Assembly (NCBI RefSeq): GCF_003751225.1 | Contig: NZ_RJKE01000001.1 | Location: 5,828,001-5,892,000 of the forward strand | Reading direction: 5' to 3' | Length of the DNA stretch: 64,000 nucleotides | Origin: Actinocorallia herbida | GTDB taxonomy: Bacteria; Actinomycetota; Actinomycetes; Streptosporangiales; Streptosporangiaceae | In this document: in pieces, positions 3,294 to 37,247 of the stretch | Position numbering within the stretch: the first letter of the stretch is position 1 | How the letters are laid out: each line of letters begins with the position of its first letter | Position numbers and translations under genes: made by a program | Notes under the pieces: generated by a model | What the model saw: the letters and a program-made list of their open reading frames with translations, nothing else | Databases searched by the model: none | What the model was told of the DNA's origin: nothing

Positions 3294-6023
3294 ATGATCC
3301 CCCGATCCCAGATGGTCGGCCGCATCGAGGATGTGCGCCGCCTCTGCGAGATCTTCTCGGGGGGAGCCGGTCGCAACCCCGGCCTTCATGTGATCGGCAC
3401 GGCGGGAGTCGGCAAGAGCGCGCTCCTGGACGCCGTCGCCGAGACGCTCACCGCGGCCGGTACCCGGGTCCTGCGCGCCGACGGCGTCGAGTTCGAGGCG
3501 GACATCGCCTACGCCGGACTTCACCAGCTGCTCCTTCCGGTGCTGGACCTGGTCAAGGACCTCGCGCCGGCCCACCGTGCGGTCCTTCTCACCGCTCTCG
3601 GCTTCCAGACGGGGCCGTCCCCCGAGCGGCTCCACCTCGTCAACGCCACGCTCGACCTGCTGCGCGAGGTCGCGGCGGAGCGGCCCGTCCTGCTGCTCGT
3701 CGACGACCTGCCCTGGCTGGACCGGGCCAGCGCCGTCCTGCTGTGGTCGGTCGCCCGCAGGCTGCCCGCCGGCACGATCGGCTTCCTCGCCGCGTCGCGG
3801 ACGGGTGCCGAGAGCCCGTTCGGCCACGGAGGACTCGCCGAGTACGAGTTGCGGCCCCTGGACGACGCCTCGGCCAACCTGCTGATCTCGGCCCGCTACC
3901 CGGCCATCGCCGCGCGGGTGCGGGCCCGGATCGTCGCCGAGGCCGGCGGCAACCCGCTGGCCCTGCTGGAACTGCCGCTGGAGCTGAGCGACTCGCAGCG
4001 CGCCGCGCAGGAGGAACTGCCCGCGATACTCCCGCTCAGCGAGCGCCTCAAGGCTCTTTTCCACGCCCGGGTCACGGCGCTGCCCGAGCCGACGCGCCGC
4101 CTGCTGCTGATGGCGGCCCTCGACGGCACCGGCGACCTCCGGGCGCTCAGCGCGGCGGCGGAGAAGGAGACCGCCGGGCTGAGCGCGCTGGCGTTCGCGG
4201 AACGCGACCGGCTGGTGCGGATCGACGCGGCCTCCCGGCGGCTGGTGTTCCACCATCCGCTGATCAGGTCTGCGGCCGTCACGGCCTCGACGCTCACCGA
4301 GCGCCGTGCCGCACACCTCGCCCTCGCCTCCGTCCTGCCCGACCAGTCCGAGCACCGCGCCTGGCATCTGGCCGAGGCGGCCATCGACGCCGACGAGAAG
4401 GTCGCCCGCCTCCTCCAGGACGCCGGCCACGCGGTACTCCGCCGGGGTGACGCAGTCGGCGCGGTCGCCGCGCTCACCCGCGCCGCCGAGCTCAGTCCGG
4501 ACGCCGTCACCCGCGGCAGGCGCCTGGCCGAGGCCGCCTACATCGGAGCGGAGGCCACAGGCGACATCCTGAACTCCTCGGACCTCCTGCGCCGCGCCGA
4601 GAGCACCGGAAGCGAAACCCTGTACACGGCGGCGGCGGCCGCCTACGTGCTCACCAACTCCGACGCCAACATCGACACCGTCTATCGGCTCCTGGTCGGC
4701 GCGGTGGAGGGGGCGGGCCCGGTCCTTGACGCCGGTGATCCCGCCGTCATCGACCTTCTGCACACCCTCCACCTGGTGTGCTGGTGGGGCGGGCGGCCGG
4801 AGCTGTGGCCCCCGTTCTTCGCCGCCATCGACCGGCTGCGCCCGGCGCCGCCGCCGGTGCTCGCGCTCGCCGTCCGCTCCTTCCCCGATCCGGCTCGCAC
4901 CGGCCACTCCGCGCTGGAGCACCTGGACGCATTCCACGACACCGTCCGCCGCTCGAGTGACCCGATGCTCGTCGTGCGCGGGGCGACCGCCGGCGTCTAC
5001 CTCGACCGGGTCGGCGAGATCCAGGACCTGCTCTGGGACCTGGTCCGCGTCGGCCGGGACGGCGGCCTGGCGGTCCGCCGTCATCTGGGCGCGCTCATGC
5101 ATCTGTGCATGGAGAGTTTCCTCATCGGCGAATGGGCCGAGGACCAGAAACTCGTCGACGAGGCGCTGGCGCTGTGCGCGGGCGAATATCCGTTCTTCAC
5201 GTGGTATTTCCAGTTCAACCAGTTGCTGCTGCACGGCGGCCGGGGCGAGGCCGACGCGGGCAACGCACTCGCCGAGCAGGTCATCCGGTGGGCGACGCGG
5301 CGCGGCGTCGGCTCCGCCCGGATCTTCGCGCTCCAGGCGCAGACCCTGGTCAGCCTGGGTGCAGGCGACTACGAAGCCGCCTACGCCCAGGCGGTCGCCA
5401 TCACCCCCGCCGGGACCCTCGCCCCCTACACCGCGCATGCGCTCTGGGGCGTCTACGACCTAGTGGAAGCGGCAGTCGCCACCGGTCGGGACGGCGCCGC
5501 GGAAGCCCATGTCCGGACCTTGCGGGAGCTGCGGATCGACCGGCTGTCGAGCCGGTACGCCATGCTCGTGGCGGGCGCTGAGGGCCTGGCCACGCCCGGG
5601 GAGGCGGGAATCGCGCATTTCGAGCGCGCGCTGGCGACGCCCGGCTCGGACCGCTGGGCGTTCGAGGCCGCCCGGATCAGGCTCGCACTCGGTGAGCGCC
5701 TGGGCCGGACCCCCCGAGCGCGGACGGAACTGGCCGCGGCGCTGGACTGCTTCACCCGGCTGGGCGCCGTCCCCTGGGCGGACCGGGCCCGCAGGGAGCT
5801 GCGCGCGCCCGGGCAACCGCGCGCCGGGTCGCCCCTGACGCCGCAGGAACTGGAGATCGCCCGGCTCGCCGCGTCGGGCATGACGAACAAGCAGATCGGC
5901 GAGCGGTTGTTCCTGTCGCACCGGACCATCGGCGCGCATCTCTACCAGATCTTCCCCAAGCTCGGCATCACCACCCGGGCGGCCCTGCGCGATGCGCTGA
6001 ACGCGCTGGGCGACACCGTCTGA
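3294..6023 (+). CDS. LAL family LuxR-type transcriptional regulator
   Basis: 909-residue MalT-like regulator. The N-terminal STAND/AAA ATPase has Walker A GTAGVGKS near residues 35-42 and Walker B LLLVDDLPWLD near 140; a long helical TPR-like middle follows, and the last 65 residues are a LuxR HTH whose recognition region reads SHRTIGAHLYQIFPKLGIT. Such proteins usually bind an inducer and ATP and then activate nearby promoters. The ATG at 3294 follows GGAGAGG at good distance. It faces the hydrolase at 2312-3154 and is followed after 79 bases by a second LAL gene with a different recognition helix. The ligand is unknown. Confidence 0.93.
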   Translation: MIPRSQMVGRIEDVRRLCEIFSGGAGRNPGLHVIGTAGVGKSALLDAVAETLTAAGTRVLRADGVEFEADIAYAGLHQLLLPVLDLVKDLAPAHRAVLLTALGFQTGPSPERLHLVNATLDLLREVAAERPVLLLVDDLPWLDRASAVLLWSVARRLPAGTIGFLAASRTGAESPFGHGGLAEYELRPLDDASANLLISARYPAIAARVRARIVAEAGGNPLALLELPLELSDSQRAAQEELPAILPLSERLKALFHARVTALPEPTRRLLLMAALDGTGDLRALSAAAEKETAGLSALAFAERDRLVRIDAASRRLVFHHPLIRSAAVTASTLTERRAAHLALASVLPDQSEHRAWHLAEAAIDADEKVARLLQDAGHAVLRRGDAVGAVAALTRAAELSPDAVTRGRRLAEAAYIGAEATGDILNSSDLLRRAESTGSETLYTAAAAAYVLTNSDANIDTVYRLLVGAVEGAGPVLDAGDPAVIDLLHTLHLVCWWGGRPELWPPFFAAIDRLRPAPPPVLALAVRSFPDPARTGHSALEHLDAFHDTVRRSSDPMLVVRGATAGVYLDRVGEIQDLLWDLVRVGRDGGLAVRRHLGALMHLCMESFLIGEWAEDQKLVDEALALCAGEYPFFTWYFQFNQLLLHGGRGEADAGNALAEQVIRWATRRGVGSARIFALQAQTLVSLGAGDYEAAYAQAVAITPAGTLAPYTAHALWGVYDLVEAAVATGRDGAAEAHVRTLRELRIDRLSSRYAMLVAGAEGLATPGEAGIAHFERALATPGSDRWAFEAARIRLALGERLGRTPRARTELAAALDCFTRLGAVPWADRARRELRAPGQPRAGSPLTPQELEIARLAASGMTNKQIGERLFLSHRTIGAHLYQIFPKLGITTRAALRDALNALGDTV

Positions 6024-6028
6024 AGACA

Positions 6029-6080: not shown

Positions 6081-6102
6081 GCTGACAGGCGAGTCTGATC
6101 CC

Positions 6103-8889
6103 ATGATCAAGGAGGAGGCTCGGCAGCCCGCTGCCACCGGACGGCCGGATATCGCCCGTTTTGGGAACCGCGTACCAGAGCAGGCGGTGGTCAACGATCT
6201 GGTGGAGACGGTCCGGGCGGGTGGGAACCGGTCGCTGGCGGTGCGCGGCGAGCGGGGAATGGGCAAGACGACGCTGCTGGAGTACGCGGCGGAGCAGGCG
6301 GCGGGCTGCCGCGTCCTGCGGGTCACCGGTCACCAGTACGAGGCGAGGCTGGCGTTCGCGGGCCTGCACCAGCTCTGCGCGCCGCTGCTGCCGTTCGCCG
6401 ACGCGCTCACCGTGCCGCAGCGGGAGGCGCTGCACTTGGCGTTCGGGTTGTCCGCCGGCCCTGAGCCTGACCGGTTCCACATCGGCCTGGCAGTTCTCGC
6501 CCTGCTCGCCAAGGCCACCGCCGAACGCCCGCTGCTCTGCGTCGTGGACGATCACCAGTGGCTGGATCGGGCTTCGGCACGGGTCCTCGGATTCGTCGCG
6601 CGCCGACTCGGCGAGATCCCGGTCGGCCTGGTCTTCGGTACCCGCGCGGACCACGACGAGTTGACGGGCCTGGACGACCTGCGGCTGACCGGCCTGCCCG
6701 ATCCGGACGCCCGCGCGCTGCTGGCGGCGACCATGCCGGGGCCGCTGGACGAGCGGGTCCGCGACCACATCATCGCCGAGACCGGCGGCAACCCGGCGGA
6801 ACTGCTCGGCATCACGCGAGGTCTCTCCCCGGTCGACCTGGCGGGCGGCTTCGGCCTGCCCGGCGCGCTCGCACCGGAACTCCACGACCCGCGGGTCGAC
6901 GACCTGACCGCGGACGCCCGGACACTGCTGACCTTGGCCGCGGCAGATCCGACCGGGGAAACCTCCCTGGTCCTGAGGGCCGCGATGCGGTCCGGCCTCC
7001 CCCTCCACACCGCGCCGCGGGCCGTCGAGAAGGCGGGTCTGGCGGTCTTCGCCGACCGCATCCGGTTCTGCGATCCGCGACTGCGGTCGTCCGTCTACCA
7101 CGCGGCGACCGACCAGGACCGGCGGGCGGCGCACCGTGCGCTCGCCGACGCCGTCATCGACGCGGACTGGCGGGCCTGGCACCGCGCGCTGAGCGTAGTG
7201 GAACCGGACGAGGAAGCGGCCTCCGATCTCGTGCGCGCGGCCGAGCAGGCCCGGTCACGCGGCGGTCCCGCCGCGGCCTCGGCGTTCTTCGGCCGGGCCG
7301 CCGCCCTCACGGCCGACCCGGAGCGCCGTGTGGCATGGCTTCTCTCGGCCGCGGAGCACGGCCTGCGGTGCGGCGCCTTCGACAGCGTCCGGGACCACTC
7401 GCACCTCGTCCTCGCCGGCCCGCTGGCCGAACCGCACGCGGCCCGGCTGGAGCAGGTGCGGGGCCGTGCCGCGTTCCTGACCGGTCAAGGCGGCGCGGCC
7501 CCCGGCCTGCTCCTGTCGGCGGCGGAACGCCTGGCGCCCCACGACCGGGAACGCGCTCGCGACGGTTACCTGATCGCCTGGACGGCCGCGCTCTACGTCG
7601 GGGCCCTCACCGACGGCCCCGGGCTGAAAGAGATATCCGCCGCCGCCCGCACGCTCCCGGCCGCCTCGCGTCCCGCTCTGCCCGACCGGCTGCTGGACGC
7701 TCTCGCCGCCCTGGTCCTGGACGGCTCGCGCTCCGCCCTGCCCCGGCTCCGCGAGGTCACCGACGCCTTCACCGCGACGGCCGCCGGTACTTCCGACGAA
7801 CTCCGCTGGGGCTGGCCCGTGCAAGCGGCGGCGGGCGCGCTCTGGGATCCGCGCGGCTGGCTGGGCATGCTCACCCGCCAAGCCGGTCTGGCCCGTGCGA
7901 ACGGCGATGTCCACCAGCTCCCGATCGTGCTCGCCGAACTCGGGACGCTCAGAGCCTGGATGGGTGAGGTCGCCGCCGCCGAGCGGCTTGCCGTCGAATC
8001 CGAGACGGCCACCGCGGCCACCGAGATGCGATTGGCCCCCTACGCCCGGATCGCCATGGCAGGGCTGCGCGGTGACCCCGCGCTCGCCCGGCCGCATTTC
8101 CGGATCGGCGCCTACCTGGGGCGTTCACACGGGCAGGAAGTGGCGATGACCGCGGTGAACTGGGCCGCCGCGGTCCTGCGCAACGGGCTGGGCGATCACG
8201 ACCGTGCCCTGCCGCACGCACTTGACGCCGCCGAAACCTCCCCCGCCCTGTTCCTGTCGCTGTGGGCGCTGCCCGAGGCGGTCGAGGCCGCGGTGCGATC
8301 CGGCCGCCCCGACGTGGCACGCAAGGCCTTGGACCGACTCGTTGACGCCGCAGGGCCGGCCGGCACGGACCACGCCGACGGTCTGATCGCTCGCTGCCGC
8401 GCACTCGTCTCGGAAGGCACGACCACCGAGGGCTGCCATCACGAGGCGATCGCCCGGCTGGAGCGGGCGGGGCTCCGGCCGGACCACGCCCGCGCCCGGC
8501 TGCTCTACGGCGAGTGGCTGCACGCGGCGGGCCGTCCGGCCGAGGCACGCACCGAGCTGCACGCCGCCCATGACGCCCTCGCCGATCTCGGCATGGACGC
8601 CTTCGCCGAGCGTGCCCGCCGGGAGCTGTCCGCCTGCGGCGGCAGAGCCCGGCGCCGCCCGGAGGACGCCACCCTCACCGACCAGGAGGCGCAGGTCGCC
8701 CGGTTGGCACTCGACGGCCACACCAACGCTGAGATCGGCGCGCAGATGTTCATCAGCGCCCGTACCGTCGAATGGCATCTGCGCAAGATCTTCACGAAAC
8801 TGAACATCTCGTCGCGGAAGGAGCTGAAGGGAGTACTCTCCGTGCCTGCGTCCCACGGTGTGGGTGCGAAGGGCCGGGACGAGACCTGA
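6103..8889 (+). CDS. LAL family LuxR-type transcriptional regulator
   Basis: 928-residue LAL protein. FGNR near residue 20 replaces the usual FVGR entry motif, Walker A is GERGMGKT at 49-56, Walker B is LLCVVDDHQWLD, and the C-terminal HTH ends in SARTVEWHLRKIFTKLNIS, a recognition region unlike that of the gene upstream. The start at 6103 is supported by the position of FGNR, but no clear SD precedes it; oddly AAGGAGGAGG lies just inside the gene with no usable start after it. Tandem with the LAL gene at 3294. The strong hairpin after the stop ends the unit. Confidence 0.91.
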   Translation: MIKEEARQPAATGRPDIARFGNRVPEQAVVNDLVETVRAGGNRSLAVRGERGMGKTTLLEYAAEQAAGCRVLRVTGHQYEARLAFAGLHQLCAPLLPFADALTVPQREALHLAFGLSAGPEPDRFHIGLAVLALLAKATAERPLLCVVDDHQWLDRASARVLGFVARRLGEIPVGLVFGTRADHDELTGLDDLRLTGLPDPDARALLAATMPGPLDERVRDHIIAETGGNPAELLGITRGLSPVDLAGGFGLPGALAPELHDPRVDDLTADARTLLTLAAADPTGETSLVLRAAMRSGLPLHTAPRAVEKAGLAVFADRIRFCDPRLRSSVYHAATDQDRRAAHRALADAVIDADWRAWHRALSVVEPDEEAASDLVRAAEQARSRGGPAAASAFFGRAAALTADPERRVAWLLSAAEHGLRCGAFDSVRDHSHLVLAGPLAEPHAARLEQVRGRAAFLTGQGGAAPGLLLSAAERLAPHDRERARDGYLIAWTAALYVGALTDGPGLKEISAAARTLPAASRPALPDRLLDALAALVLDGSRSALPRLREVTDAFTATAAGTSDELRWGWPVQAAAGALWDPRGWLGMLTRQAGLARANGDVHQLPIVLAELGTLRAWMGEVAAAERLAVESETATAATEMRLAPYARIAMAGLRGDPALARPHFRIGAYLGRSHGQEVAMTAVNWAAAVLRNGLGDHDRALPHALDAAETSPALFLSLWALPEAVEAAVRSGRPDVARKALDRLVDAAGPAGTDHADGLIARCRALVSEGTTTEGCHHEAIARLERAGLRPDHARARLLYGEWLHAAGRPAEARTELHAAHDALADLGMDAFAERARRELSACGGRARRRPEDATLTDQEAQVARLALDGHTNAEIGAQMFISARTVEWHLRKIFTKLNISSRKELKGVLSVPASHGVGAKGRDET

Positions 8890-8990: not shown

Positions 8991-9008
8991 CGTGCGCGGA
9001 CGCCCTGC

Positions 9009-9665
9009 TCAGCGCTCCGACCGGCCCGAGAAGAGGGTCAGGAAGAGCAGGAAGACGTTCAGGACGTCGAGAAAGATCGACGCGGCGAGGAACGGCGCCT
9101 CGGTGTCCTCCCCGGTCCGGAGCCTTTGGAAGTCGACCATGATGAGCGCCGCGAAGATCACCAGACCGATCACCGAGTAGACCAGCGCGCCGCCCGGAAT
9201 GCTGACGAACGCCAGCACGATCCCGAACACGATCAGTGCGAGCAGCGCCCAGGACGACACGCGGGCGACGCCCGTCAGATCGCGCCTGGTCGCGTAACCG
9301 GCCGTCCCGGTCGCCGCGACGAACAGCGAGGTCGCACCGCCGGCCCTCCAGAGGGCGTCCGGGTCGGCGTCGGCGTAGTAGGCCAGCGTCGGGCCCATCG
9401 CCAGCCCCATGAGCAGGCCGAACGCCATGAGCAGCGCCACCGTCAGCGGGAGCGAGCGCGTGGCGAACCGCATCGCGATCAGGGCCCCGAAGGCGCCCAA
9501 GAACGCGGCGATCGCGGCCCCTCCGCCCGCGTCGCGGCCCAGGTAGGAGCCCAGTGCGAAGACCGCGGTCGTGGCCGCGACATGGCCCATGGTCTGGGCG
9601 AACAGGGTGTGCGCCCGGTCGCGGGACACAGGTGCTCCCGACCGGTATGAAATGGCGTCCTCCAT
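9009..9665 (-). CDS. Bax inhibitor-1/YccA family membrane protein
   Basis: 218-residue integral membrane protein with seven hydrophobic segments. Family features are visible: a long run of small and hydrophobic residues, a basic DFQRLRTGED loop after the sixth segment and the last segment ASIFLDVLNVFLLFLTLFSG with its buried Asp. Bacterial relatives such as YetJ are pH-dependent calcium leak channels; here transport is inferred from the family only. ATG at 9665 lies 18 bases after the stop of the SRPBCC gene upstream, and both probably belong to one operon with the SnoaL-like gene at 10150. Confidence 0.9.
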   Translation of the reverse strand: MEDAISYRSGAPVSRDRAHTLFAQTMGHVAATTAVFALGSYLGRDAGGGAAIAAFLGAFGALIAMRFATRSLPLTVALLMAFGLLMGLAMGPTLAYYADADPDALWRAGGATSLFVAATGTAGYATRRDLTGVARVSSWALLALIVFGIVLAFVSIPGGALVYSVIGLVIFAALIMVDFQRLRTGEDTEAPFLAASIFLDVLNVFLLFLTLFSGRSER

Positions 9666-15541: not shown

Positions 15542-15794
15542 CGAGATGCCCTCCATCCGTCCTCTGCAGGCGACCGCCGCCCGCCGCACTCAATGTGCCG
15601 CGAGGGCGGACCCGCGGGACCAGGGAGAACGACTTGCCCGGACCCTGGAGCACGCCCCCGGGTACCCGGGACCTGGAGCGGCCGGCGCGTACCCAGGCAG
15701 ACCCGAGGGAGCCCACCGGTTCCGTTCCCAGGAGGTGATCCAGAGGTCGATGAGGTCGCGTCGCGGGCCCTGCGGGGAGTCGGGCACCACAAGA

Positions 15795-15810
15795 TGGACC
15801 GTTAGGTCCA
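15795..15810. promoter_or_regulatory. TetR operator at its own promoter
   Basis: TGGACC-GTTA-GGTCCA is a perfect 6-base inverted repeat with a 4-base spacer. It lies 21 bases before the TetR start and overlaps a possible -35 (TGGACC), with GATGCT at 15819-15824 as a possible -10 that would give a leaderless or nearly leaderless transcript. Related palindromes lie at 16439-16460 and 31343-31360. Confidence 0.65.
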
Positions 15811-16438: not shown

Positions 16439-16494
16439 CATTGGACTTGACAGTCCAATGTTGACGGCGCAAGATTGGACCATGTCATCCAATC
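16439..16494. promoter_or_regulatory. double TetR operator and promoter of the MFS gene
   Basis: Site 1 (16439-16460) has 9-base arms CATTGGACT and AGTCCAATG around TGAC. Site 2 (16473-16494) has 7-base arms GATTGGA and TCCAATC with an 8-base spacer; both span 22 bases. TTGACA at 16447-16452 within site 1 is a good -35, and AAGATT at 16471-16476 a weak -10, putting the transcript start near the ATG at 16482. Repressor on site 1 would cover the -35, and on site 2 the start codon. Confidence 0.7.
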
Positions 16495-18033: not shown

Positions 18034-18096
18034 ATGCGCAGGCACGACGCCTGCCGTACTCAGATGAAGCAGCACTCGGCGAAAGGGAGTACACGC

Positions 18097-25630: not shown

Positions 25631-25707
25631 TGATTCCTCCCCGTCCCGTGCACCGCCGGTCGGCCGTGCTCGGCCGACTCTAGGTACGGGGGCGTCAAGA
25701 CTCGTCG

Positions 25708-25719
25708 GGCATCCGACTG
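25708..25719 (+). promoter_or_regulatory. decamer-like site upstream of LAL gene
   Basis: GGCATCCGACTG differs by one base from GTCATCCGACTG, matching the decamer plus the TG extension seen at 3251 and 31181. It lies 78 bases upstream of the GTG at 25630. The preceding GTCGG makes an inverted repeat with CCGAC. Confidence 0.35.
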
Positions 25720-25840
25720 CGCATCCGATCCGCAGTATCCGAACGCCGGGTGATCGAATCGCACGTTCGGTGAACAGCATCGGGTATCGATGAGTATCGG
25801 TACCGCCCTGTATCAGTCATCGTGTCCGACGCCGGCCGTG

Positions 25841-28625: not shown

Positions 28626-31148
28626 CTAGAGCCCACTCAGGGCTGCCCCGAGCTCGGCCCGTGCCCGGTCGGCCCATGGCCTGGCACCGATGCGGTCGAG
28701 CTCCGCGACGGCAGGCCGCAACGCCGCCACCGCCTCCTCGCGCCGACCGAGCCGTCGCAGCCAGCCGCCGTGGGCCAGGTTCGCGCAGGCCTCGGCCCAA
28801 GGCCACCCGGCGAAATCCTGGTCCATCATGTCCGCATAAAGCGGACCAGCGATGGCGTCGTCACAGATCACGGCCCGAGCATAGCGGAGGTGAACGACCA
28901 GCAGCGGAGCGCGGGTCAGGTTCGCCACCTGCGACAACTCGGCCAGGACCGCGCTCGCGTCGGCCTCCCGCCCCGCCTCGACCGCCGCCTCGGCGAGGAA
29001 CATCACAGCGCCGAATCGCTCCCGCTGGTGGAAGCTCGGATCGTCGGCGCGGAACGCCCGCGCCAGTTCCCGGTACGCCTGAACGTGCCGCCCGGCGGCG
29101 GACAGCGCGGCTCCCTTCGCGAGCTGAGCCATCGACAGCAGCTGGTTCAGCCGCTGCCGACTCGCCGTCGCCTCCACCTCGGCCGCATAGCTGAGCGCCT
29201 GGTCCGAATCTCCCCGGAACGCGCTGCTCAGCGCGTCGCAGGCGAGGGCACCGATACGCCAGATCGGCTGTCCCGTCTCCTTCGCCAGCAGCTCCCCCTC
29301 CCGGGCTGCGGCCTGCGCACCCTTCCAGTCACCGGTCTCCAGCCGGTTGACGACACAGAGCGAGAGCACCTGGGACAGCAGTGCCAGCCGCCCCTGGCTG
29401 CGCAGCAGCGCCTCCGACCGGCCGAGGAAGGTCAGGCTGCGGACCGGGTCACCGATCGCGGTGGCGGCGATGCCGAAGACCCGCAGGGCATCGCCGTCTG
29501 CGATCTCCGCGGGCCGGACCTCGGACAGCAGGTCCATGACGGCGCCGCATTCGGCCACGGGCTCGGCGAGCGCGAGCGTCGCGACATAGCGGTGGTCGTG
29601 CGTGATGTCCGCCCCGCCGACCAGGGACTTCGCGGCGGAGACCACATCGGCCCTCGCGGCGGGCCCGGTATCGGCCCACCAGCACCGCAGTGCCGCCCCC
29701 AGCAGCAGGTTCAGCGCCAGATCGCGGTCGCCCACCGCATGCGACTGCCTTGCCGCGTCGCAGAGCTGATGCACCCGCGCGGCGTCGCCCGGCACCCCGT
29801 CGTGGAAGATCTCCCGCAGCCACTGCGCCCGCGCCCAGTCGAGCTCGGACAGGTCGCACCGCTCCGCGGCGGTCACCAGGAGTCCCACCTGTTCCTGCTG
29901 TCCGAGGCTGAAGGCGTGCTCCGCGGCCACCAGCAGCCGGCGCCCGCGCTGGGCCGAGGCGCCGGTCAGCTGCGCCGACCACTGCAGCAGGCGGATCGCG
30001 GACATGACCGCGCCGCGGCCGACGGCCACCGAGGCGTTCGCCTCCAGCTCGTCGGCGATCTCGTCGTCGGGGCCCATGATGGACTGCCCCCGGTGCCAGG
30101 CCCGACGGTACGGATCGGTGTCCAGCACCGCGGCGACAGCCGCGTTGGCGGCGTGCCTGCGCTCCAGCGTCTCGGCTTGCAGTACACCTGAGCGCACCAG
30201 CGGATGGCGCAGCTCCAGGCGACCGTGCTCGACCCGGACCAGGCCGGCCTCTACGGCGGGACGGAAGACATCGGCGGAGACCGGGGCCCCGTACAGGACC
30301 GCCGTGGCGGAAAGGATCTCGGCCACGTCGTCGACCGGGTCGACGGCCGCGATCAGCAGCGCGTCGCGGGCGGCCGGGTCCAGCTCGGCTACCCTGCTGC
30401 CGAACGCCCGCTCCAGCCTGGCGGTGAGCGGCTGCCAGTCCTGGGCCTCCGGATGGACTGCCCCGGCGAGGGTCTCGGGGAGTTCCAGCAGGGCCAATGG
30501 GTTCCCCTGGGCCTGTTCCCTGATGCGGCGCCGGTCGGCCACGCCGGCCACGCCGGCCAGACTGCTCAGGATCTCCTCGGCGGCGTCGCCGTCCACACCG
30601 GAGACCGCCAGCTCGGGCAGCCCCGCGGAGACGAACGGACCCGGGTACCCGGTCCGGACGGTCCCGATGATGGCGAGCCGCAGAGGTGCGCGGCGGTGTG
30701 CGATGAACGTGAGCACCTCTTGGCTCTGCGCGTCCAGCCACTGCACGTCGTCGACCAGGATGGCGAGTGGCTGCTGGGCGGCGGCCGCCTCGATCAGATC
30801 CACCGCCGCCAGCGCGACGCCGAAGATGTCCGGCCGCTCCCCCTCGGCCAGGCCGAACGCGGTCAGCAGGGCCTGCTGGCGCTGGTTCGGCCGGATGCCG
30901 AGCGGGCGCAGCACCTGGTGCAGCCCGGCGAACGGCAGCTGCGCCTCGGACTGCACGCCGACCGCCCCCAGGACCCTGAAACCCGCACCGCGCGCAGCCG
31001 CCCGGGCGGCGCGCAGCAGGGCCGTCTTGCCGATGCCGGGGTCTCCGAGAAGGACGAGGCACCGGCCCTCGTCGGAGACTCGGTCGATCATCTCCGTCAG
31101 AGCCCGGACCTCGGCGTCCCGGCCGAACAATACGCTGGTCATCAGCAT
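28626..31148 (-). CDS. LAL-type regulator without C-terminal HTH
   Basis: 840 residues. VLFGRDAEVRAL, Walker A GDPGIGKT at 35-42 and Walker B LAILVDDVQWLD are intact, and the TPR-like region is complete up to GARPWADRARAELGAALSGL, where the protein stops at the exact point where paralogs have a linker and then the HTH (compare GARSWAESTRVEL in the next gene). It thus has a sensing/ATPase half but no DNA-binding domain. The next gene, a full LAL protein, starts at its stop. It could act as a partner, decoy or ligand sensor for that protein. ATG 31148; ATG 31142 is an alternative. Confidence 0.88.
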   Translation of the reverse strand: MLMTSVLFGRDAEVRALTEMIDRVSDEGRCLVLLGDPGIGKTALLRAARAAARGAGFRVLGAVGVQSEAQLPFAGLHQVLRPLGIRPNQRQQALLTAFGLAEGERPDIFGVALAAVDLIEAAAAQQPLAILVDDVQWLDAQSQEVLTFIAHRRAPLRLAIIGTVRTGYPGPFVSAGLPELAVSGVDGDAAEEILSSLAGVAGVADRRRIREQAQGNPLALLELPETLAGAVHPEAQDWQPLTARLERAFGSRVAELDPAARDALLIAAVDPVDDVAEILSATAVLYGAPVSADVFRPAVEAGLVRVEHGRLELRHPLVRSGVLQAETLERRHAANAAVAAVLDTDPYRRAWHRGQSIMGPDDEIADELEANASVAVGRGAVMSAIRLLQWSAQLTGASAQRGRRLLVAAEHAFSLGQQEQVGLLVTAAERCDLSELDWARAQWLREIFHDGVPGDAARVHQLCDAARQSHAVGDRDLALNLLLGAALRCWWADTGPAARADVVSAAKSLVGGADITHDHRYVATLALAEPVAECGAVMDLLSEVRPAEIADGDALRVFGIAATAIGDPVRSLTFLGRSEALLRSQGRLALLSQVLSLCVVNRLETGDWKGAQAAAREGELLAKETGQPIWRIGALACDALSSAFRGDSDQALSYAAEVEATASRQRLNQLLSMAQLAKGAALSAAGRHVQAYRELARAFRADDPSFHQRERFGAVMFLAEAAVEAGREADASAVLAELSQVANLTRAPLLVVHLRYARAVICDDAIAGPLYADMMDQDFAGWPWAEACANLAHGGWLRRLGRREEAVAALRPAVAELDRIGARPWADRARAELGAALSGL

Positions 31149-31180
31149 AAAGTAGCCGCCCGCGCCCGCGAGATGAATGC

Positions 31181-31190
31181 GTCAAACGAC
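31181..31190 (+). promoter_or_regulatory. candidate LAL operator decamer
   Basis: GTCAAACGAC followed by TG lies 33 bases upstream of the HTH-less LAL gene. It is identical in ten bases to the site at 157-166 and differs by one base from GTCATACGACTG at 3251. Confidence 0.45.
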
Positions 31191-31342
31191 TGCACGGACC
31201 GGGCCAGGACCCTGACAGAGTCATCAGGCCGCCCGGCGCCCCGGTAGGTGTACGCCCGGTCCTTTCCCGAGGCGAAGCGCCGCAGCCGCGACGATGCGCC
31301 GCTGCACCACCCGACCCTTGATGTGTCTCAAGTCACTCTATT

Positions 31343-31396
31343 ATGGACTTGTCAGTCCATTTTTTGGGACGCATGATGAGTGGACCAGCAAGTCCA
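31343..31396. promoter_or_regulatory. double TetR-type operator before SnoaL/epoxide hydrolase operon 2
   Basis: Site 1 (31343-31360) has arms ATGGACT and AGTCCAT around TGTC; its 16-base core matches the MFS operator core in 15 positions. Site 2 (31381-31396), TGGACC-AGCA-AGTCCA, has one arm mismatch. TTGTCA inside site 1 could be the -35 and CATGAT at 31372-31377 the -10. The double-site layout copies that of the MFS promoter. Confidence 0.65.
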
Positions 31397-31469
31397 AAGC
31401 TGGTTCGGCCGCACACCCGCCTTGCCGGTGGATGTTCGGACCGTCGTCACTCCACAGGGATGGTCGATC

Positions 31470-31928
31470 ATGGACACTCTTGAGCGTCTCGGCACCACCG
31501 AGGATCTTCGTCGGCTGATGGCCCGCTACGTCCGGTACGCCGATCAGCAGCGCTGGCAGGACCTCACGGATCTGTTCACACCCGACGGTACGTTCACCCC
31601 GCACAAGCCCGACGGATCGGTGTGGCTGCACATGGACGGCCGGGAGGAGATCGCCGCGACGGTCGGCGCCAGCGGCGGCCCCGGCGTCACCCTGGTCCAC
31701 CACCTGTTCTCCGACGAGATCGACGTCGACTCGCCGACCACGGCCTACGGCGTATGGGCGATGGAGGACATCGTCACCCGGCCCGAGGACGCCGAGGTGT
31801 CCGAGGCCATCCCCTTCAAGCGTATGCACGGCTTCGGCCACTACCACGCGCGCTTCGTCAAGACCCACGGCTCCTGGTACATCGCCGAACTCATCCAGAC
31901 CCGGATCCGCCTGGACTTCACCGTCTGA
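31470..31928 (+). CDS. SnoaL-like nuclear transport factor 2-fold protein (copy 2)
   Basis: 152-residue NTF2-fold protein, paralog of the one at 18097: ARYVRYADQQRWQDLTDLFTPDG and HGFGHYHARFVKTHGSWYI match its start and end. The acidic insertion HMDGREEIAATVGASGGPG distinguishes it. ATG 31470 has AGGGA nine bases upstream. It precedes an epoxide hydrolase by 48 bases. Two TetR-type operators in the promoter suggest control by the TetR protein encoded at 15831. Its role is probably to act on the same substrate type as the hydrolase. Confidence 0.88.
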   Translation: MDTLERLGTTEDLRRLMARYVRYADQQRWQDLTDLFTPDGTFTPHKPDGSVWLHMDGREEIAATVGASGGPGVTLVHHLFSDEIDVDSPTTAYGVWAMEDIVTRPEDAEVSEAIPFKRMHGFGHYHARFVKTHGSWYIAELIQTRIRLDFTV

Positions 31929-31976
31929 CCGTCCTCGCGGCCACCCCACGAACACCAACACGAAAGAAGGATCGCC

Positions 31977-33212
31977 GTGAGCAACGTCGACAAGCCGACA
32001 GCGCTGGAGCCGTACAAGATCGACGTCCCCCAGGACGCCCTGGACGATCTCAAGGACCGGCTGAGGAAGACCCGCTTCTTCGACGACCTGGACAACGAAG
32101 AGGAGTACTACGGAATCAGCACCGCCTACCTCAGGCCGCTGGTGGAGTACTGGGCCGACGGCTTCGACTGGCGCGCCCAGGAGACTCGGCTGAACTCCCA
32201 CAACCAGCACAAGGTCGAGGTCGACGGCACGCCGGTGCACTTCGTGTACGAGCGGGGCACAGGCCCGAACGCGATCCCGCTGGTCGTGCTCCACGGCTGG
32301 CCCTGGCCGGGCGAGTTCAGCTACGGCCTCATCGGCCCCCTGACCGACCCGGCCGCCCACGGCGGTGACCCGTCGGACTCGTTCGACGTCATCGTGCCGG
32401 ACCTGCCCGGCTTCGCCTGGTCCACTCCCGTCGCCAGAGGCGATCTCAACTACTGGAAGATCGCCGACATCATTCACGAGCTCATGACCGAGGTCCTGGG
32501 CTACGAGAAGTACGCGGTGGCGGGCTCCGACTACGGTGCCCTGGTCACAAGCGCGCTCGGCCACAAGTACGCCGACAGCATCATCGGCCTGCACTACGGG
32601 CACGACTTGCCTCCGGGCCAGTTCGCAGGCGAGCGGTTCTGGGATCTGACCGACGGCGCCAAGATCCCCGAGGACGCCTCGCCGGAACTGCGGGCAGGGC
32701 TGGAGAACCTCGTCGGCACCTATGTCTCCCACGTCGCGGTCCACATGCTGGACGCGTCGACCCTCACCCACGGGCTGAACGACTCGCCCATCGGCATGCT
32801 CGCCTGGCTGCTGCGGCGATGGAAGAAGTGGAGCGACAAGCGGGGCGATTTCGAGGCCGACTTCCCCCGCGACTTCATCCTCACGCAGGCCACCGTCTTC
32901 TGGCTGACACAGTCCATCGGCAGCTCCATCCGCATGTACCGCAACGCCGTGCGCTACCCGTGGGTGCCCTCCCACAACCGTGAGCCCGTCGTCGAGCCGC
33001 CGGCCGGCTTCACCTTCCTCCTCGGCGACGCCTACCCGCCCGGCATCGACACCGTCGAAGAACGCATCGCCGCCTTCGAGAACGGGCCCACCCGCAGCTC
33101 CTTCAACGTGGTCAACGTCAACGCCCACCTGAAGGGCGGCCACTTCGTCCACTACGAGAACCCCGAGGCCTTCACCTCCGACCTCCGGGCGACATTCCGC
33201 GCACTCCGCTGA
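31977..33212 (+). CDS. epoxide hydrolase, EHN-domain alpha/beta hydrolase (copy 2)
   Basis: 411 residues, close paralog of the enzyme at 18584. EHN domain in residues 10-90 (QDALDDLKDRLRKTR; YWADGFDWRAQE), HGWP at 106-109, nucleophile Asp185 in GSDYGA, His in LKGGHFVHYEN. The start is GTG 31977 with AGAAGGA six bases upstream. Expected to open an epoxide to a diol in the cytoplasm. A hairpin terminator follows. Two copies with differing flanks (GSDMGS versus GSDYGA) suggest related but distinct substrates. Confidence 0.92.
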   Translation: MSNVDKPTALEPYKIDVPQDALDDLKDRLRKTRFFDDLDNEEEYYGISTAYLRPLVEYWADGFDWRAQETRLNSHNQHKVEVDGTPVHFVYERGTGPNAIPLVVLHGWPWPGEFSYGLIGPLTDPAAHGGDPSDSFDVIVPDLPGFAWSTPVARGDLNYWKIADIIHELMTEVLGYEKYAVAGSDYGALVTSALGHKYADSIIGLHYGHDLPPGQFAGERFWDLTDGAKIPEDASPELRAGLENLVGTYVSHVAVHMLDASTLTHGLNDSPIGMLAWLLRRWKKWSDKRGDFEADFPRDFILTQATVFWLTQSIGSSIRMYRNAVRYPWVPSHNREPVVEPPAGFTFLLGDAYPPGIDTVEERIAAFENGPTRSSFNVVNVNAHLKGGHFVHYENPEAFTSDLRATFRALR

Positions 33213-33295
33213 CCCGCCCGGCGGAGTACGGGCCGAGGTCGCGTGGGCGCCGCAGGACGCGGCCGAAATCTCTTCGCTCATCCGCTGCACCGTCT

Positions 33296-33338
33296 GGGTC
33301 CATGCGGGGGCCGGAATCCTCCGGCCCCGCATGGACCC
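33296..33338. terminator. long bidirectional hairpin
   Basis: GGGTCCATGCGGGG and its complement, extended to CCGGA/TCCGG, pair over about 19 bases with one bulged G and an ATCC loop, between the converging epoxide hydrolase and Tat-exported hydrolase genes. Confidence 0.82.
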
Positions 33339-33352
33339 TTCGGTGGTGCTCG

Positions 33353-34393
33353 TTACAGGCGGTCGGCGTCGACCACGGCCTGGGCGAAGGCCGTGGGCGC
33401 CTCCTGCGGCAGATTGTGCCCGATTCCGGTGAGCGTCCGGTGCGCGTACTTGCCGACGAAGAACTTCCGGTAGGCGGCGCCGTCCACGGCGGGCAGGAAC
33501 GGATCCCGGTCGGGATCGAGGGTGATGGTCGGAACCTTGATGGTGGGCTGGGCCGCCAGCTTCCGCTCGTAGCGGTCGTAGCGGAGCTCGCCGTCGGACA
33601 GGCCGAGGCGCCAGCGGTAGTTGTGGATCACGATGGGGGCGTAGTCGGGGTTGGCGAAGGCCGCCGCCGTGCGTTCGAAGGTGGCGTCGTCGAAGTCCCA
33701 GGTCGGGGAGACCTCGTCCCAGACCAGCCGGCACAGGTCGTGCCGCAGGGTCTCGGTCTCCATGGCCTGGCGCCCCCGCTCGGTGGCGAAGTAGTACTGG
33801 TACCACCACGTGTGCTCGGCCTTGGGCGGCAGCGGGTTCTTCTGCGCCTGGACGTTGGTGATCAGGTATCCGCTCACCGAGACGAGGGCCTTGACCCGCT
33901 CCGGCCAGAGCGCCGCGATGATGTCGGCGGTGCGCGATCCCCAGTCGAATCCCGCCAGCACCGCCTTGCGGATGCTCAGGGCGTCCATCAGGGCGATGAT
34001 GTCGAGCGCGATCGCGGACTGCTGCGCGTTGCGGATGGTGGTCGATGAAAGGAACCGGGTGGTGCCGTGGCCGCGCAGATACGGCACGATCACCCGGTAG
34101 CCGGCCGAGGCCAGCAGCGGAGCGACGTCCACGAAGCTGTGGATGTCGTAGGGCCAGCCGTGCAGGCAGATCACCACCGGGCCGTCGGCGGGGCCCCGCT
34201 CGGCGTAGCCGATGTCGAGCACTCCGGCCCGGACCTGCTTCAATTTCGGAAAGGCGGTGTGCGTGCCCGGGGGGATCATCGGAATGGCCCGGGGTATGGC
34301 CGCCGCCGAGTCGCCGCCCAGTACCCCGGCCACCCCGGTCGCCGCGCCCATGCCCAGACCGATCGCCTTGCTGAAGCTGCGCCTGCTGATCAC
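33353..34393 (-). CDS. Tat-exported epoxide-hydrolase-type alpha/beta hydrolase
   Basis: 346 residues. The N-terminus SRRSFSKAIG with a following hydrophobic stretch and AAA is a twin-arginine signal, so export in folded form is expected. The hydrolase part has HGWP near residue 78 and a nucleophile elbow GFDWGS with Asp150, as in epoxide hydrolases and haloalkane dehalogenases; GIGHNLPQEAP carries the His. GTG 34393 has AGGAGG seven bases upstream. The LAL gene at 34491 lies directly upstream, with a decamer between them, so regulation by that LAL protein is plausible. Confidence 0.89.
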   Translation of the reverse strand: MISRRSFSKAIGLGMGAATGVAGVLGGDSAAAIPRAIPMIPPGTHTAFPKLKQVRAGVLDIGYAERGPADGPVVICLHGWPYDIHSFVDVAPLLASAGYRVIVPYLRGHGTTRFLSSTTIRNAQQSAIALDIIALMDALSIRKAVLAGFDWGSRTADIIAALWPERVKALVSVSGYLITNVQAQKNPLPPKAEHTWWYQYYFATERGRQAMETETLRHDLCRLVWDEVSPTWDFDDATFERTAAAFANPDYAPIVIHNYRWRLGLSDGELRYDRYERKLAAQPTIKVPTITLDPDRDPFLPAVDGAAYRKFFVGKYAHRTLTGIGHNLPQEAPTAFAQAVVDADRL

Positions 34394-34459
34394 GTCTTGT
34401 CCTCCTTGTGTAGCCGTTCGCGTCTCTCACTGTCGTTCAGGGCTGGTTCCGGCACATCG

Positions 34460-34469: not shown

Positions 34470-34490
34470 GCCGAGACACTCCGGTCAGAC

Positions 34491-37247
34491 CTATGCGGTG
34501 AGCTCGTCCTCCCAGCTCAAGGCGTCGCGCAGCGCGGCCCGCTTGGTGACGCCCAGCTTGGGGAAGATGCGGTACAGGTGTGAGCCGACCGTCCGCGGCG
34601 ACAGGTGCAGCCGCGTACCGATCTCCTTGTTCGTCATTCCGCTGGCGGCCAGGCCGGCGATCCTCCGTTCCTGCCACGTCAACGAGGCCAGGTTCAGCGT
34701 GGAGGCGCGCGGGGCTGCCGCGGTGATCCTCAGTTCGGTCCGGGCCCGCTCCGCCCACCCGCCGGCGCCGAGCCGTTCGAAGGACTCCGCCGCACGGACC
34801 AGGAGCCGCCGCGCCGCCGCGCGGTCCCGCACGTGGCGGAGCCGGATCCCGTGCGCGAGCCGGATCCGGGCCAGTTCGAACGGGAATCGCGCCGCGGCCG
34901 GGTGGGATTCGGCGCACTCGTACATTTCGGTGGCCTCCTTCTCATCGTCGGCGGTCATCATCAGCGCCCCGTAGGTGATCAGGGCCAAGCGTGGCGAGAG
35001 GTCGGTGAGGCCGGCGTCGCGGGCGGCGAGCGCGTGCAGGCGGGCCTCCTGCGCCCGCCCGGTGTGGAGGGCCGCCTCGACGAGGTCGAGCAGGGTGCGT
35101 GCGGCCTGACCGGACCACGGCTGAAAGGTTCCCGGACGGGTGATTTCGACCGCGTGGAGATAAGCGGTCTCGTAGTCACCGGCACTCAACGCGGCCGCCG
35201 CACCTGCGGCATCGACGATCTGGGTCAGGAACCCGACCCCGCGCGGCCGGGCCCAGGAGTCGACCACGGCTTGCAGCTCCCGCGCCCGTCCCGCCTGCCC
35301 GCGCAAGGCCGCGAGCTGCGCCAGATGAGCGCGGGTCTGGTGGGCCAGCAGCTCCTGACCATGCTCGGTCTCCAGCGAGAGGGCGCGCTGCGCCGTGCCC
35401 TCGGCGGCGTCCCACTCGCCGGCCGCCAGCTGCTCCAGCATGATCAGGTTCAGCATGACCATGCCGCTGAGCACCGCACCGGTCTCCAGCTCGCGCGTCA
35501 CGACGCGCTGGAGATGGGGCCGGAACTGGTTCAGGATGTCAAGGTGGTACGCCGAGACGGCCAGGCGCGTGACATCCCAGGGCTCCTGGTCCTGGAGGTT
35601 CGCCGCGGCCCGCTCCAGCGGCTCGGACCATCCGCTCCCGTGCCGGACCACGTCGCTCCAGGTGCTGCCGTAGATCCGCGACCTCTCGGTCACCAGATCG
35701 CCCAGGGAATCCAGGAGATCCCGGGTCGTCTCCCACAGGGTGTGGTCCGCGGCGTACTGGCTGATGGTGATCAGGAGGACCACGAGACGGTCGATGGTCT
35801 CGGCGGAGCGGGCCTGCCCACTGTCGCGCAGGCTCTCGATCGCCGCCGTGACCTGCCGGTGGGTGCAGTGCGCGGCACCGTCCTGGAACAGCGCCAAGTT
35901 GGCGGTGGCCACGACCGAGGCCGGGGACGGGCCCGGCCCTGCGGCAAGGTCGGACAGCACGAGCCGGTGCGCTTGGCCGAGACGGGCGGTGTGCCCGGCG
36001 ACGAAGGCCGCCCTGCTGAGCCTTCGGGATCGGTCGGTGGGGCTCTCGCTCAGTTCGGCGGCGCGGGTCAGCAGACCCACGGCCGCGATGGCGCCACCGC
36101 GCCGCGTCGCGCCACCGGCCGCCGCCTCAAGTATCTCGGCCACCTCACCGTCGGGATCGACCGCGGCCATCCCCAGGTGCACGGCGTGACGCTCGGGGTT
36201 GTCCCGATGCACCTGCGCCAGGGCCGCGTGCGCCGCGCGGCGCTGGTCAGGAGTGGCCATCTGCACGACGCTCGATCGCACGAGCGGATGCCGGAAGGTG
36301 ACATCGCCGGTGACCGGCTCGATGTCCAGCAGGCCGCAGGCCACCGCCTCGTCGACCTCGCGCATGCGGTAGCACGGCTCCCGGCTCCGGTCGCCCAAGC
36401 CCGCCCCGACCCCGTCGAGGGCTCCCATGAGCAGTTCCGCACCGACCGCGTCGGTGAGGGCCGCGATGCGAGTGCCGTACAGCCGCCGGAGCCGCCTCGG
36501 TAGCGGCACGCCGGGCCGTCCGAAGGCGTCCTCCGGAATCCTGCCGTCGGAGCCCGCGACGTGGGCGGGCAACTCCAGCAGTGCCAGGGGGTTCCCCCGG
36601 GCCTGGTCCAGCACCACCTGGCGGACACGCCTGCGCAAAGCCGGATGGCGCTGGTCCAAAAGGAGCGCCGCGTCCTCGTCCGTGAGCGCGCCGACCGGCA
36701 CTTCCGGCAGTGCCGCGGCGTCGAAGCGCGAGGGGACGTCGGCCCGGACGGCCACCAGCAGCTTCACCGGGGCTGCGGAGATGCGTCGGCCCGCGAACCC
36801 GAGGACGTCGGCGCTGGAGCCGTCCAGCCAATGGCCCTCGTCCAGGACCAGCAGCACCGGCCGCTTCGCGGCGACACGCGAGAGCAGGTCGAGCAGCGCG
36901 ATGCCGAGCATCATGACCGAGGGAAGCTCGGCAGTCGTCCGGTCGAAGACCGCGTCGAACACCGCGTCGAAGACCGCGCGGCGGCCGTCTTCCAGCCGGG
37001 CGATGTCGGGGAGCAGCGCGCTGAGGAGCTGGTGGAGCCCGGCGTAGGGCAGGTCGGATTCTGCCTCGACACCGGTCGCCCGGATCACGAGGTGGCCTTC
37101 CTGCGCCGCGATCTCGGCCGCGTGGTCGAGCAGGGCGGTCTTGCCGACCCCCGACTCTCCGATGACGACGAGCGATCGCCCGCCCGCGGCCCGCACATGG
37201 CCGGACAGTTGTTCCTTCTCGCTCTCCCGGCCGATCAGCGTCATCAT
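34491..37247 (-). CDS. LAL family LuxR-type transcriptional regulator
   Basis: 918 residues. LIGRESEKEQL, Walker A GESGVGKT near 30-37, Walker B LLVLDEGHWLDG (Glu in place of the second Asp), helical middle, and HTH ending SPRTVGSHLYRIFPKLGVTKR. Residues 91-102 read AVFDAVFDAVFD, encoded by three 12-base repeats at 36942-36977 and absent from paralogs. Start ATG 37247 or 37244; no clear SD. It is the only LAL gene of the set not adjacent to another and is flanked by hydrolase genes transcribed in the same direction. Confidence 0.91.
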   Translation of the reverse strand: MMTLIGRESEKEQLSGHVRAAGGRSLVVIGESGVGKTALLDHAAEIAAQEGHLVIRATGVEAESDLPYAGLHQLLSALLPDIARLEDGRRAVFDAVFDAVFDRTTAELPSVMMLGIALLDLLSRVAAKRPVLLVLDEGHWLDGSSADVLGFAGRRISAAPVKLLVAVRADVPSRFDAAALPEVPVGALTDEDAALLLDQRHPALRRRVRQVVLDQARGNPLALLELPAHVAGSDGRIPEDAFGRPGVPLPRRLRRLYGTRIAALTDAVGAELLMGALDGVGAGLGDRSREPCYRMREVDEAVACGLLDIEPVTGDVTFRHPLVRSSVVQMATPDQRRAAHAALAQVHRDNPERHAVHLGMAAVDPDGEVAEILEAAAGGATRRGGAIAAVGLLTRAAELSESPTDRSRRLSRAAFVAGHTARLGQAHRLVLSDLAAGPGPSPASVVATANLALFQDGAAHCTHRQVTAAIESLRDSGQARSAETIDRLVVLLITISQYAADHTLWETTRDLLDSLGDLVTERSRIYGSTWSDVVRHGSGWSEPLERAAANLQDQEPWDVTRLAVSAYHLDILNQFRPHLQRVVTRELETGAVLSGMVMLNLIMLEQLAAGEWDAAEGTAQRALSLETEHGQELLAHQTRAHLAQLAALRGQAGRARELQAVVDSWARPRGVGFLTQIVDAAGAAAALSAGDYETAYLHAVEITRPGTFQPWSGQAARTLLDLVEAALHTGRAQEARLHALAARDAGLTDLSPRLALITYGALMMTADDEKEATEMYECAESHPAAARFPFELARIRLAHGIRLRHVRDRAAARRLLVRAAESFERLGAGGWAERARTELRITAAAPRASTLNLASLTWQERRIAGLAASGMTNKEIGTRLHLSPRTVGSHLYRIFPKLGVTKRAALRDALSWEDELTA

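Follow-up and report, generated by a model that had tools for sequence, protein, structure and literature searches.

LAL-type proteins in the window

The genome of Actinocorallia herbida is a single contig of 9.80 Mb, and we analyzed its positions 5,828,001-5,892,000, a stretch of 64,000 nucleotides that is called the window here. Nine LAL-type (large ATP-binding LuxR-like) proteins, W1 to W8 and W10, are encoded in the window. The most informative and unusual part of this locus is one adjacent pair rather than the number of LALs: W8, a LAL-derived ATPase without a helix-turn-helix (HTH), lies directly before W7, a complete LAL.

The nine proteins were confirmed by Pfam at the positions given in the original prediction. 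Seven of them, about 910-990 amino acids (aa) long, have an N-terminal AAA_16 domain and a C-terminal LuxR-type HTH (GerE). They are W1 (3294-6023, + strand) and W2 (6103-8889, +) in tandem, W4 (12806-15589, -), W5 (19983-22736, -), W6 (22808-25780, -; a tandem duplicate with 60% identity to W5), W7 (25841-28624, or to 28636, -; AAA_16 77.2 bits, GerE 54.7 bits) and W10 (34491-37247, -). In W1, W2, W5, W6, W7 and W10, both domains scored above the Pfam cut-offs, and all six are LALs by definition. Pfam bears out the predicted number of seven proteins with a P-loop and an HTH, which becomes six if the Walker A lysine is required, since W4 reads GPSGSGRT. This composition resembles that of described LAL regulators, which include PikD, RapH, NysRI/NysRIII, AmphRI/AmphRIII and SCO0877/SCO7173 (PMC3282765). 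Unlike them, W8 (28626-31148, -; AAA_16 74.8 bits) has no HTH and W3 (10701-12809, -; 702 aa, GerE 49.6 bits, no AAA_16) has no nucleotide-binding domain (NBD). W4 scores 54.9 bits for AAA_16 yet has Arg for Lys in Walker A.

The HTH ends fall into the three classes proposed, GxHLYxIFPKL (W1, W7, W10), EWHLRKIF/V (W2, W5, W6) and GTHL (W3, W4). The four adjacent pairs proposed are also positioned as predicted, but W8/W7 and W6/W5 belong to a single same-strand run of four genes, W8-W7-W6-W5, from 31148 to 19983. Besides the 60% of W5/W6, pairwise identity was 48% for W7/W8, 45% for W2 and W5, 37% for W1 and W10 and 36% for W3/W4. A further long frame, 31341-34430 (1029 aa), was taken as spurious; it has no Pfam match and overlaps genes that have one. 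Another difference from the described LAL regulators is that the window proteins scanned include no polyketide synthase or peptide synthetase.

The unusual LAL density that had been claimed was borne out. With 150 of 165 candidates scored, the genome has 81 GerE matches, 32 of them in frames of at least 760 aa. Eight of these 32 fall in the window, inside 30 kb; when 32 genes were placed at random 20,000 times, no 30-kb stretch contained more than five. The density is far above chance.

W8, a STAND protein without an HTH

W8 has 840 aa and consists of an NBD, helical and winged-helix domains (HD/WHD), an arm and tetratricopeptide repeats (TPR) up to its end. Pfam found no GerE in W8, whose frame stops with the last TPR helix, and its scan revealed neither a DNA-binding domain nor an N-terminal SARP (Streptomyces antibiotic regulatory protein) domain. 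W8 has the residues of a STAND protein (signal transduction ATPase with numerous domains), namely Walker A and B, the sensor Arg, the GNP motif and the WHD His, in the order NBD-HD-WHD-arm-sensor. In the following, W8 and its counterparts in other genomes are called p8, and W7 and its counterparts p7. Walker A, Walker B, the sensor Arg R165, GNPL and HPL.RS were retained in all 12 collected p8.

An AlphaFold2 model of W8, built from an alignment of 10 sequences, had a mean pLDDT of 87.6 and a pTM of 0.75, with the last helix at residues 823-838. Its best Foldseek match was 6MFV, the STAND-TPR protein PH0952 (E = 1e-12). PH0952 is described as a MalT homolog with an ADP-bound nucleotide-binding oligomerization domain, an arm and a TPR sensor (PMC6468293). 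The whole-chain TM-scores were low (0.25/0.31), and the likeness concerns the domains, not the overall pose. W8 shares the domain order NBD-HD-WHD-arm-TPR with MalT and PH0952. Against the MalT family model NF003420 (cut-off 537), W7 scored 21.9 bits and W8 had no match, so neither is a MalT ortholog. A further difference is that MalT is a single protein restrained by unrelated inhibitors and has no HTH-less paralog as a partner.

The in-frame ATG at 31142, which lies 6 nt past a -10-like box and agrees with the Nocardia starts, may be the real start of W8. At the junction with W7, CTCTAGGATG, the W7 ATG at 28624 lies one base past the W8 stop (TAG-G-ATG); an alternative GTG start at 28636 would overlap W8. 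By simple NG86 counts, dN/dS between W8 and its two Nocardia orthologs was 0.21 and 0.22 (0.29 and 0.26 for W7), and it was 0.20 between the two Nocardia for both p8 and p7. We rejected the possibility that W8 is a frameshift or gene-call artefact, as W7 starts one base after the W8 stop, both Nocardia relatives end at the same place and dN/dS is low. Because dN/dS is low and the ATP-switch residues are kept, W8 looks like a functional protein rather than a relic. It derives from a LAL, and purifying selection has maintained its ATP-switch residues and its TPR sensor.

Pairs of p8 and p7 in other genomes

Relatives of W8 were searched for with peptide patterns over one genome per species (84,980 species), and with profile searches of genomes. 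The patterns matched 362 stretches, of which 324 encode a relative, and the best 80, in 76 loci, were kept. The wide genome searches scored the best candidates of each genome (three, two in the 394-genome search, or nine in the search for W3). In all 12 collected cases, from at least seven families, a p8 with no HTH or a degenerate one directly adjoins an HTH-bearing sister LAL. The HTH is absent from p8 of Nocardia aurantia (L001), Nocardia sp. alder85J (L005), Hamadaea tsunoensis (L007), a Promicromonosporaceae metagenome-assembled genome (MAG; L010), Paractinoplanes ferrugineus (L011), Demequina soli (L013), Nocardioides sp. CER19 (L028) and the genomes G390 (L120) and G322 (L121). It is degenerate in Planotetraspora (L002; 20.7 bits with a local hidden Markov model, HMM) and Streptomyces olivochromogenes (L006; vestigial letters with no HMM match). 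A thirteenth, partial case, in a Thermoleophilia MAG (L015), is cut by contig ends.

The gene for p8 comes first in ten pairs and that for p7 in Hamadaea and S. olivochromogenes, and the two are always adjacent. In our reading, the frames of eight of the 12 pairs overlap or lie within a few bases of each other; the junctions of L001, L005 and L121 are a few bases apart, and L007, L010, L011 and L013 have overlaps of the ATGA or GTGA type. The profile searches, which are free of any bias toward adjacency from retrieval through p7, used partly overlapping sets of 394 genomes of the class, 35 of the family of G390 and 301 of the family of G343; scoring covered the best 2 candidates of each genome in the first set, the best 27 in the second and the best 3 in the third. 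Among these best candidates, matches above 900 bits occurred solely as adjacent pairs (own genome, G390, G322 and G892, the last agreeing in its coordinates with L001 of N. aurantia). All other matches listed for the 394 genomes reached at most 805 bits, and those listed for the other two sets were very strong ones only (E up to 1e-260).

In 75 loci, which were chosen by similarity to W8, same-strand adjacent LAL pairs occur in 24 places, nine of which are HTH-less/HTH pairs. The earlier statement that LALs usually act alone is thus too strong for the W8-like group. Tandems of two complete LALs with different HTH types and an almost constant gap of ~67-82 bp were also seen at six Streptomyces loci (L027, L029, L031, L033, L037, L052), possibly another fixed pair. 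Near the W7/W8-type pairs of L007, L010, L011 and L028 we observed a recurrent protein family, which begins with MSHHLDSPxxRxDxRLN in three of them and which we take to be DUF4331-like; in three of the four genomes it has a small neighbor, presumably a cupin-like protein.

Relationship and transfer of the pair

A maximum-likelihood tree of the 12 pairs and 12 chosen single LALs, with the HTH left out, had a branch that separates the 12 p8 from all other proteins (bootstrap 91, SH-aLRT 39); together with the Hamadaea p7 they were supported by 100/98. In a larger quick tree of 68 rows, the ten p8 then known grouped together. Its rows were the 62 cores nearest to W7/W8 and the other window LALs; contig-cut frames, cores shorter than 780 aa, the HTH-less frames L034, L048 and L053, and W3 were omitted. 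The distances among p8 and among p7 were correlated over the 12 pairs (Mantel r = 0.78, P = 0.0007).

STAND proteins fill many roles, and W8 might therefore have its own job unrelated to W7 and be co-transcribed with it for convenience. However, p8 is most closely related to the W7-clade LALs and has them as its neighbors in each collected pair, in either order. Among the alternatives considered here, we regard this one as the least probable.

Two Nocardia species, members of another order, carry 80-84% versions of the W8/W7 pair in which the W7 orthologs are 82-84% identical, and the dS of these genes against those of the window is low (0.38-0.55). At E = 1e-120, the two other genomes of the genus gave no match to the pair, and by the criteria of identity and frame length only one other of the 297 family genomes searched has it (G060, the Planotetraspora of L002). 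Because the pair is patchy in genus and family while a different order has such similar, low-dS versions, we infer that it was horizontally transferred.

Promoter of the pair

The region before W8 (31149-31192, -) contains the box CAGTCGTTYGACGCATT at 31176-31192, a -35-like TTCATC and, after 17 bp, a -10-like TACTTT at 31149-31154. The box is identical in the window, L001 and L005, where the rest of the leader barely aligns. Also common to the three is a -10-like TAC(T/C/G)TT that precedes the start codon by 6 nt (in the window, ATG 31142), and the W8 transcript is probably leaderless. In our reading, the box abuts the predicted -35-like hexamer, a common position for an activator.

Each of the three genomes searched has one exact copy of CAGTCGTTYGACGCATT, upstream of p8. 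No second strong site was found in these three genomes: with at most 2 mismatches there were 3, 2 and 3 sites, versus 0, 0 and 1 for the reversed control. Within the window, extra copies were not in evidence either (4 sites with at most 3 mismatches, 2.67 expected), and the sole exact one precedes W8. This pattern would fit self-activation by W7.

Other LALs, hydrolases and origin of the locus

Behind the promoter of W8, on the opposite strand, lie genes for a SnoaL-like protein (31470-31928, +; PF13577, 83.8 bits) and an epoxide hydrolase with EHN and Abhydrolase_1 domains (31977-33212, +). The frame of the former opens at 31380, and the ATG at 31470 fits its relatives. Their counterparts in L151 and L152 are 83-84% and 84-86% identical, respectively. 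A first copy of each gene lies at 18034-18540 (+; PF13577, 88.8 bits) and 18584-19813 (+; EHN-type). The closest orthologs of W5, in two genomes of the same family (G227, 76%; G280, 73%), adjoin orthologs of the 31470 and 31977 genes (83-86%); the order is W10 (72%)-SnoaL-EHN-W5 in G280 and W5-EHN-SnoaL in G227. In the window, W6, W7 and W8 separate W5 from this SnoaL/EHN operon. Among 15 further W5-like loci (52-55% identity), none has SnoaL, two have a distant EHN gene (31-32%) and seven have a hydrolase like that at 39331; thus the link of W5 with SnoaL and EHN is limited to the two close orthologs. We rejected SnoaL/EHN as the leading idea for a target of W8/W7, because both genes are missing from the DNA examined around the two Nocardia pairs, the W5 orthologs carry both, and TetR-type dyads precede them.

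The alpha/beta hydrolase at 39331-40176 (+; PF12697, 85.1 bits) has relatives that recur beside LALs. Such a hydrolase lies within 6 kb at nine of 17 loci of the W7/W8 clade, versus 13 of 61 other LAL loci, and the genome itself has six copies, three within about 7 kb of LALs. The eight hydrolases counted earlier are five Abhydrolase proteins, two EHN-type epoxide hydrolases and one tannase; the number holds when the count includes the tannase/feruloyl esterase and some genes slightly beyond the range then considered. In L130 (G622), relatives (62-74%) of the tannase, the 39331 hydrolase, a glyoxalase and the 33353 gene lie close together, with a LAL in the vicinity; this genome and G892 belong to one family (f4), which is that of Nocardia. 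A perfect inverted repeat of 17 bp, with a loop of 3 nt, was seen at 37431-37467, in the gap that separates the tannase stop from the W10 start; it would be a terminator or operator.

The sister genome G001 carries four LALs, one of them a W4 relative (56%), at a distance of 47-67 kb from a flank with a 95% match to window positions 55551-58820, and the region has no W7/W8. G001 and the window thus appear as a LAL-rich locus with turnover. The W4 relative of the sister species likewise reads GRT. W3 most likely starts at 12809, where ATGA overlaps the W4 stop, and its 702-aa frame begins past the NBD region. The idea that W3 is an NBD-less partner kept by selection was not supported: with the best nine candidates per genome scored, 12 matches occurred in five of 120 family genomes, and all except W3 itself lie in frames of at least 942 aa. 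W3 looks like a private truncation. A membrane protein of the Bax1-I family (9009-9665) sits between W2 and the W3/W4 LALs.

The pieces of the locus have different relatives: W8/W7 in Nocardia, W5, W10, SnoaL and EHN in two genomes of the same family, the tannase, 39331, glyoxalase and 33353 genes in a genome from the family of Nocardia, and W4 in the sister species. The locus therefore looks composite, with LAL cassettes in a variable locus, and not like one coordinated system. These different relatives, the other LAL set 47-67 kb from the shared right flank in G001 and the apparent truncation of W3 would also agree with chance accumulation, with LALs proliferating in actinomycetes, a hotspot at this locus and W8 as a duplicate in decay. 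However, dN/dS is no higher for W8 than for W7, and relatives with as little as 43% identity, from at least seven families, share the HTH-less or degenerate state; we consider mere accumulation very unlikely.

Three further observations concern other parts of the window. A haloalkane dehalogenase is encoded at 45743-46609 (NF002938, 394.8 bits, cut-off 241), and a single protein of 287 aa at 46740-47603 bears two MarR stretches. The stretches 49966-50804 (839 bp, 100%) and 50855-51291 (about 437 bp, 93%) have near copies in the genome at 5,795,572 and 5,931,604, which may reflect a recent duplication or a mobile element.

TetR repressor and its candidate operators

A TetR-family repressor is encoded at 15832-16418 (+). 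It has a TetR_N domain (PF00440, 26.2 bits, cut-off 24) and an LmrA/YxaF-like C-terminal domain (PF21993, 29.8 bits, cut-off 27), and is thus of the LmrA/YxaF type. A transporter of the major facilitator superfamily (MFS; 16458-17948, +; PF07690, 162.6 bits) and the first SnoaL and EHN copies (18034, 18584) follow consecutively on one strand, a probable MFS-SnoaL-EHN operon. Dyads of the form TGGACY-N4-RGTCCA precede the TetR gene (TGGACCGTTAGGTCCA, 15795-15810; ATG 15832) and, directly, the MFS start (TGGACTTGACAGTCCA, 16442-16457). About 15 kb away, two more, TGGACTTGTCAGTCCA and TGGACCAGCAAGTCCA, 37 bp apart (31344-31396), are candidate TetR operators before the second SnoaL/EHN operon.

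The pattern TGGACYNNNNRGTCCA matched these four sites in the window, versus 0.01 expected. Paired dyads with the same spacing recur before the SnoaL/EHN orthologs of G280 (L152), an independent support for the operator reading; none were seen before the orthologs of G227, and TGGACYNNNNRGTCCA matched once each in L050, L053 and L128, outside a SnoaL/EHN context. Two points call for caution here: TGGACYNNNNRGTCCA was fitted to its own four sites, and the unfitted TGGACTNNNNAGTCCA, with at most 2 mismatches, found the same four sites versus 1.35 expected, a number reached in two of 100 shuffles. A predicted TetR regulon would include both SnoaL/EHN operons. As in LmrA/YxaF-type regulators, a dyad lies before the repressor's own gene; unlike them, this repressor is linked to SnoaL and epoxide hydrolase genes, and its binding is a prediction.

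These dyads are evidence against a purely LAL-driven hydrolase array. In the original prediction, each LAL of the array would respond to a single inducer and control a hydrolase of its own close by. The conserved neighborhood of W5 with SnoaL/EHN in two other genomes, once with W10, and the 39331-like hydrolases near LALs are in favor of such matching. Speaking against the one-to-one arrangement are the TetR-type dyads at the SnoaL/EHN operon, the different relatives of the parts and the Nocardia W8/W7 pairs (L001, L005), which have neither EHN nor SnoaL within about 7-10 kb. The observation behind the prediction was confirmed and its interpretation partly supported; we regard the one-to-one array as unlikely.

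A proposed two-protein activator and its main rival

We give an about even chance to the view that the locus is a LAL-rich variable region of cassettes of different origin and that W8/W7 is a two-protein STAND activator. LALs are described as single-protein activators, with ATPase, sensor and HTH in one chain. Here, W8 would be the sensor or gating subunit and W7 the DNA-binding subunit; a mixed assembly is the simplest reading because a conserved, switch-competent, HTH-less paralog adjoins a complete LAL. The two proteins would be made together, and W8, once its own TPR sensor is occupied, would set or nucleate the ATP-dependent oligomer of W7. Only W7 would contact DNA, starting with the box upstream of the promoter that the pair itself uses. 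W1/W2, W5/W6, W10 and W4 would be LAL regulators of the ordinary kind, some with a stable link to particular hydrolase genes. The second SnoaL/EHN operon and the probable MFS-SnoaL-EHN operon would also, or mainly, be under the TetR repressor.

MalT is described as cycling between an ADP-bound monomer and an ATP-bound oligomer, in which oligomerization through NBD surfaces activates the protein and stabilizes the C-terminal domains for DNA binding (PMC10427625). In mammals, NAIP2 is reported to sense and to nucleate NLRC4 in a NAIP2/NLRC4 hetero-complex (PMC9975940). The W8/W7 activator would thus split sensor and helper as in NAIP-NLRC4, within a MalT-type activator. In both cases there are two related STAND proteins with unequal roles, and the likeness is proposed from adjacency, conservation and asymmetry. 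They differ in that NAIP and NLRC4 are eukaryotic immune receptors with a reported hetero-complex (PMC9975940), whereas W8/W7 is known from genes. The analogy suggests that W8 and W7 work as a pair, somewhat like the paired immune receptors of plants and animals. Only tentatively do we extend this to p8 in general, as a counterpart of NAIP-NLRC4 in bacterial gene regulation: p8 would sense an inducer, nucleate a mixed oligomer with p7 and have been co-inherited with it, partly by horizontal transfer, in actinomycetes and perhaps one Thermoleophilia lineage.

The main rival is that W8 is an anti-activator, which forms mixed non-binding oligomers with W7 or caps it and is released by an inducer, in the manner of MalY or Aes on MalT; MalY is described as inhibiting MalT by covering an NBD oligomerization surface (PMC10427625). 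Of interest here is a di-Arg in the helix that follows Walker B, roughly one turn away from the position of MalT R143. It reads RR in 94 of 103 HTH-bearing LALs (nine of them p7; five further HTH-bearing LALs were off-pattern and left out) and in 12 of 12 p7. Because RR occurs in just four of 12 p8, the oligomerization face of p8 may be altered. The sequences are related, and the difference is only a hint because the comparison was post hoc and other columns were relaxed in p8 too (L86, L116, R798 and R807 in a scan of 134 conserved columns). Against an anti-activator, p8 retains many other conserved LAL columns, and all ATP-switch residues are kept in 12 of 12 p8, which is not required of a pure inhibitor. 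We consider such a role of W8 somewhat unlikely.

Several points weigh against the two-protein activator. Four named pairs (L007, L010, L013, L028) were reached via p7, which favors adjacency, and five via p8 itself (L001, L002, L005, L006, L011). In four of the 12 pairs the genes are further apart, by tens of bases (L002, L028, L120) or by 111 bp (L006). An HTH-less LAL-like frame of Paractinoplanes maris (L053:2419-5427, -), outside the p8 clade, has no adjoining LAL frame in the DNA examined. Tandem LALs that both retain the HTH are also common, so adjacency alone is no proof of a complex. The single origin of p8 is modestly supported (SH-aLRT 39; 72 in the quick tree), and the correlation of distances decreased to r = 0.46 (P = 0.052) when the two Nocardia pairs were left out. 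The W8-W7 complex is a prediction, in which either subunit may be the sensor and W8 may activate or inhibit.

Implications

An LAL-like half that lacks the LuxR HTH is also found in the SARP-LAL regulators PimR, SanG and PolR; PimR differs in having an N-terminal SARP DNA-binding domain (PMC5930380), and W8 has no DNA-binding domain by Pfam. In the open-access literature we recognized no description of an HTH-less LAL kept beside a complete LAL, which does not in itself prove that none exists. An HTH-less lineage beside a complete sister in several families would mean that activators of the LAL/MalT type can be heteromers in which one chain senses and another binds DNA. If so, searches and tests of LAL regulons would change, and the overexpression of single genes, which is common for waking silent clusters, may need both genes. 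The pair would also offer a small bacterial model for paired receptors similar to the NLRs (nucleotide-binding leucine-rich-repeat receptors).

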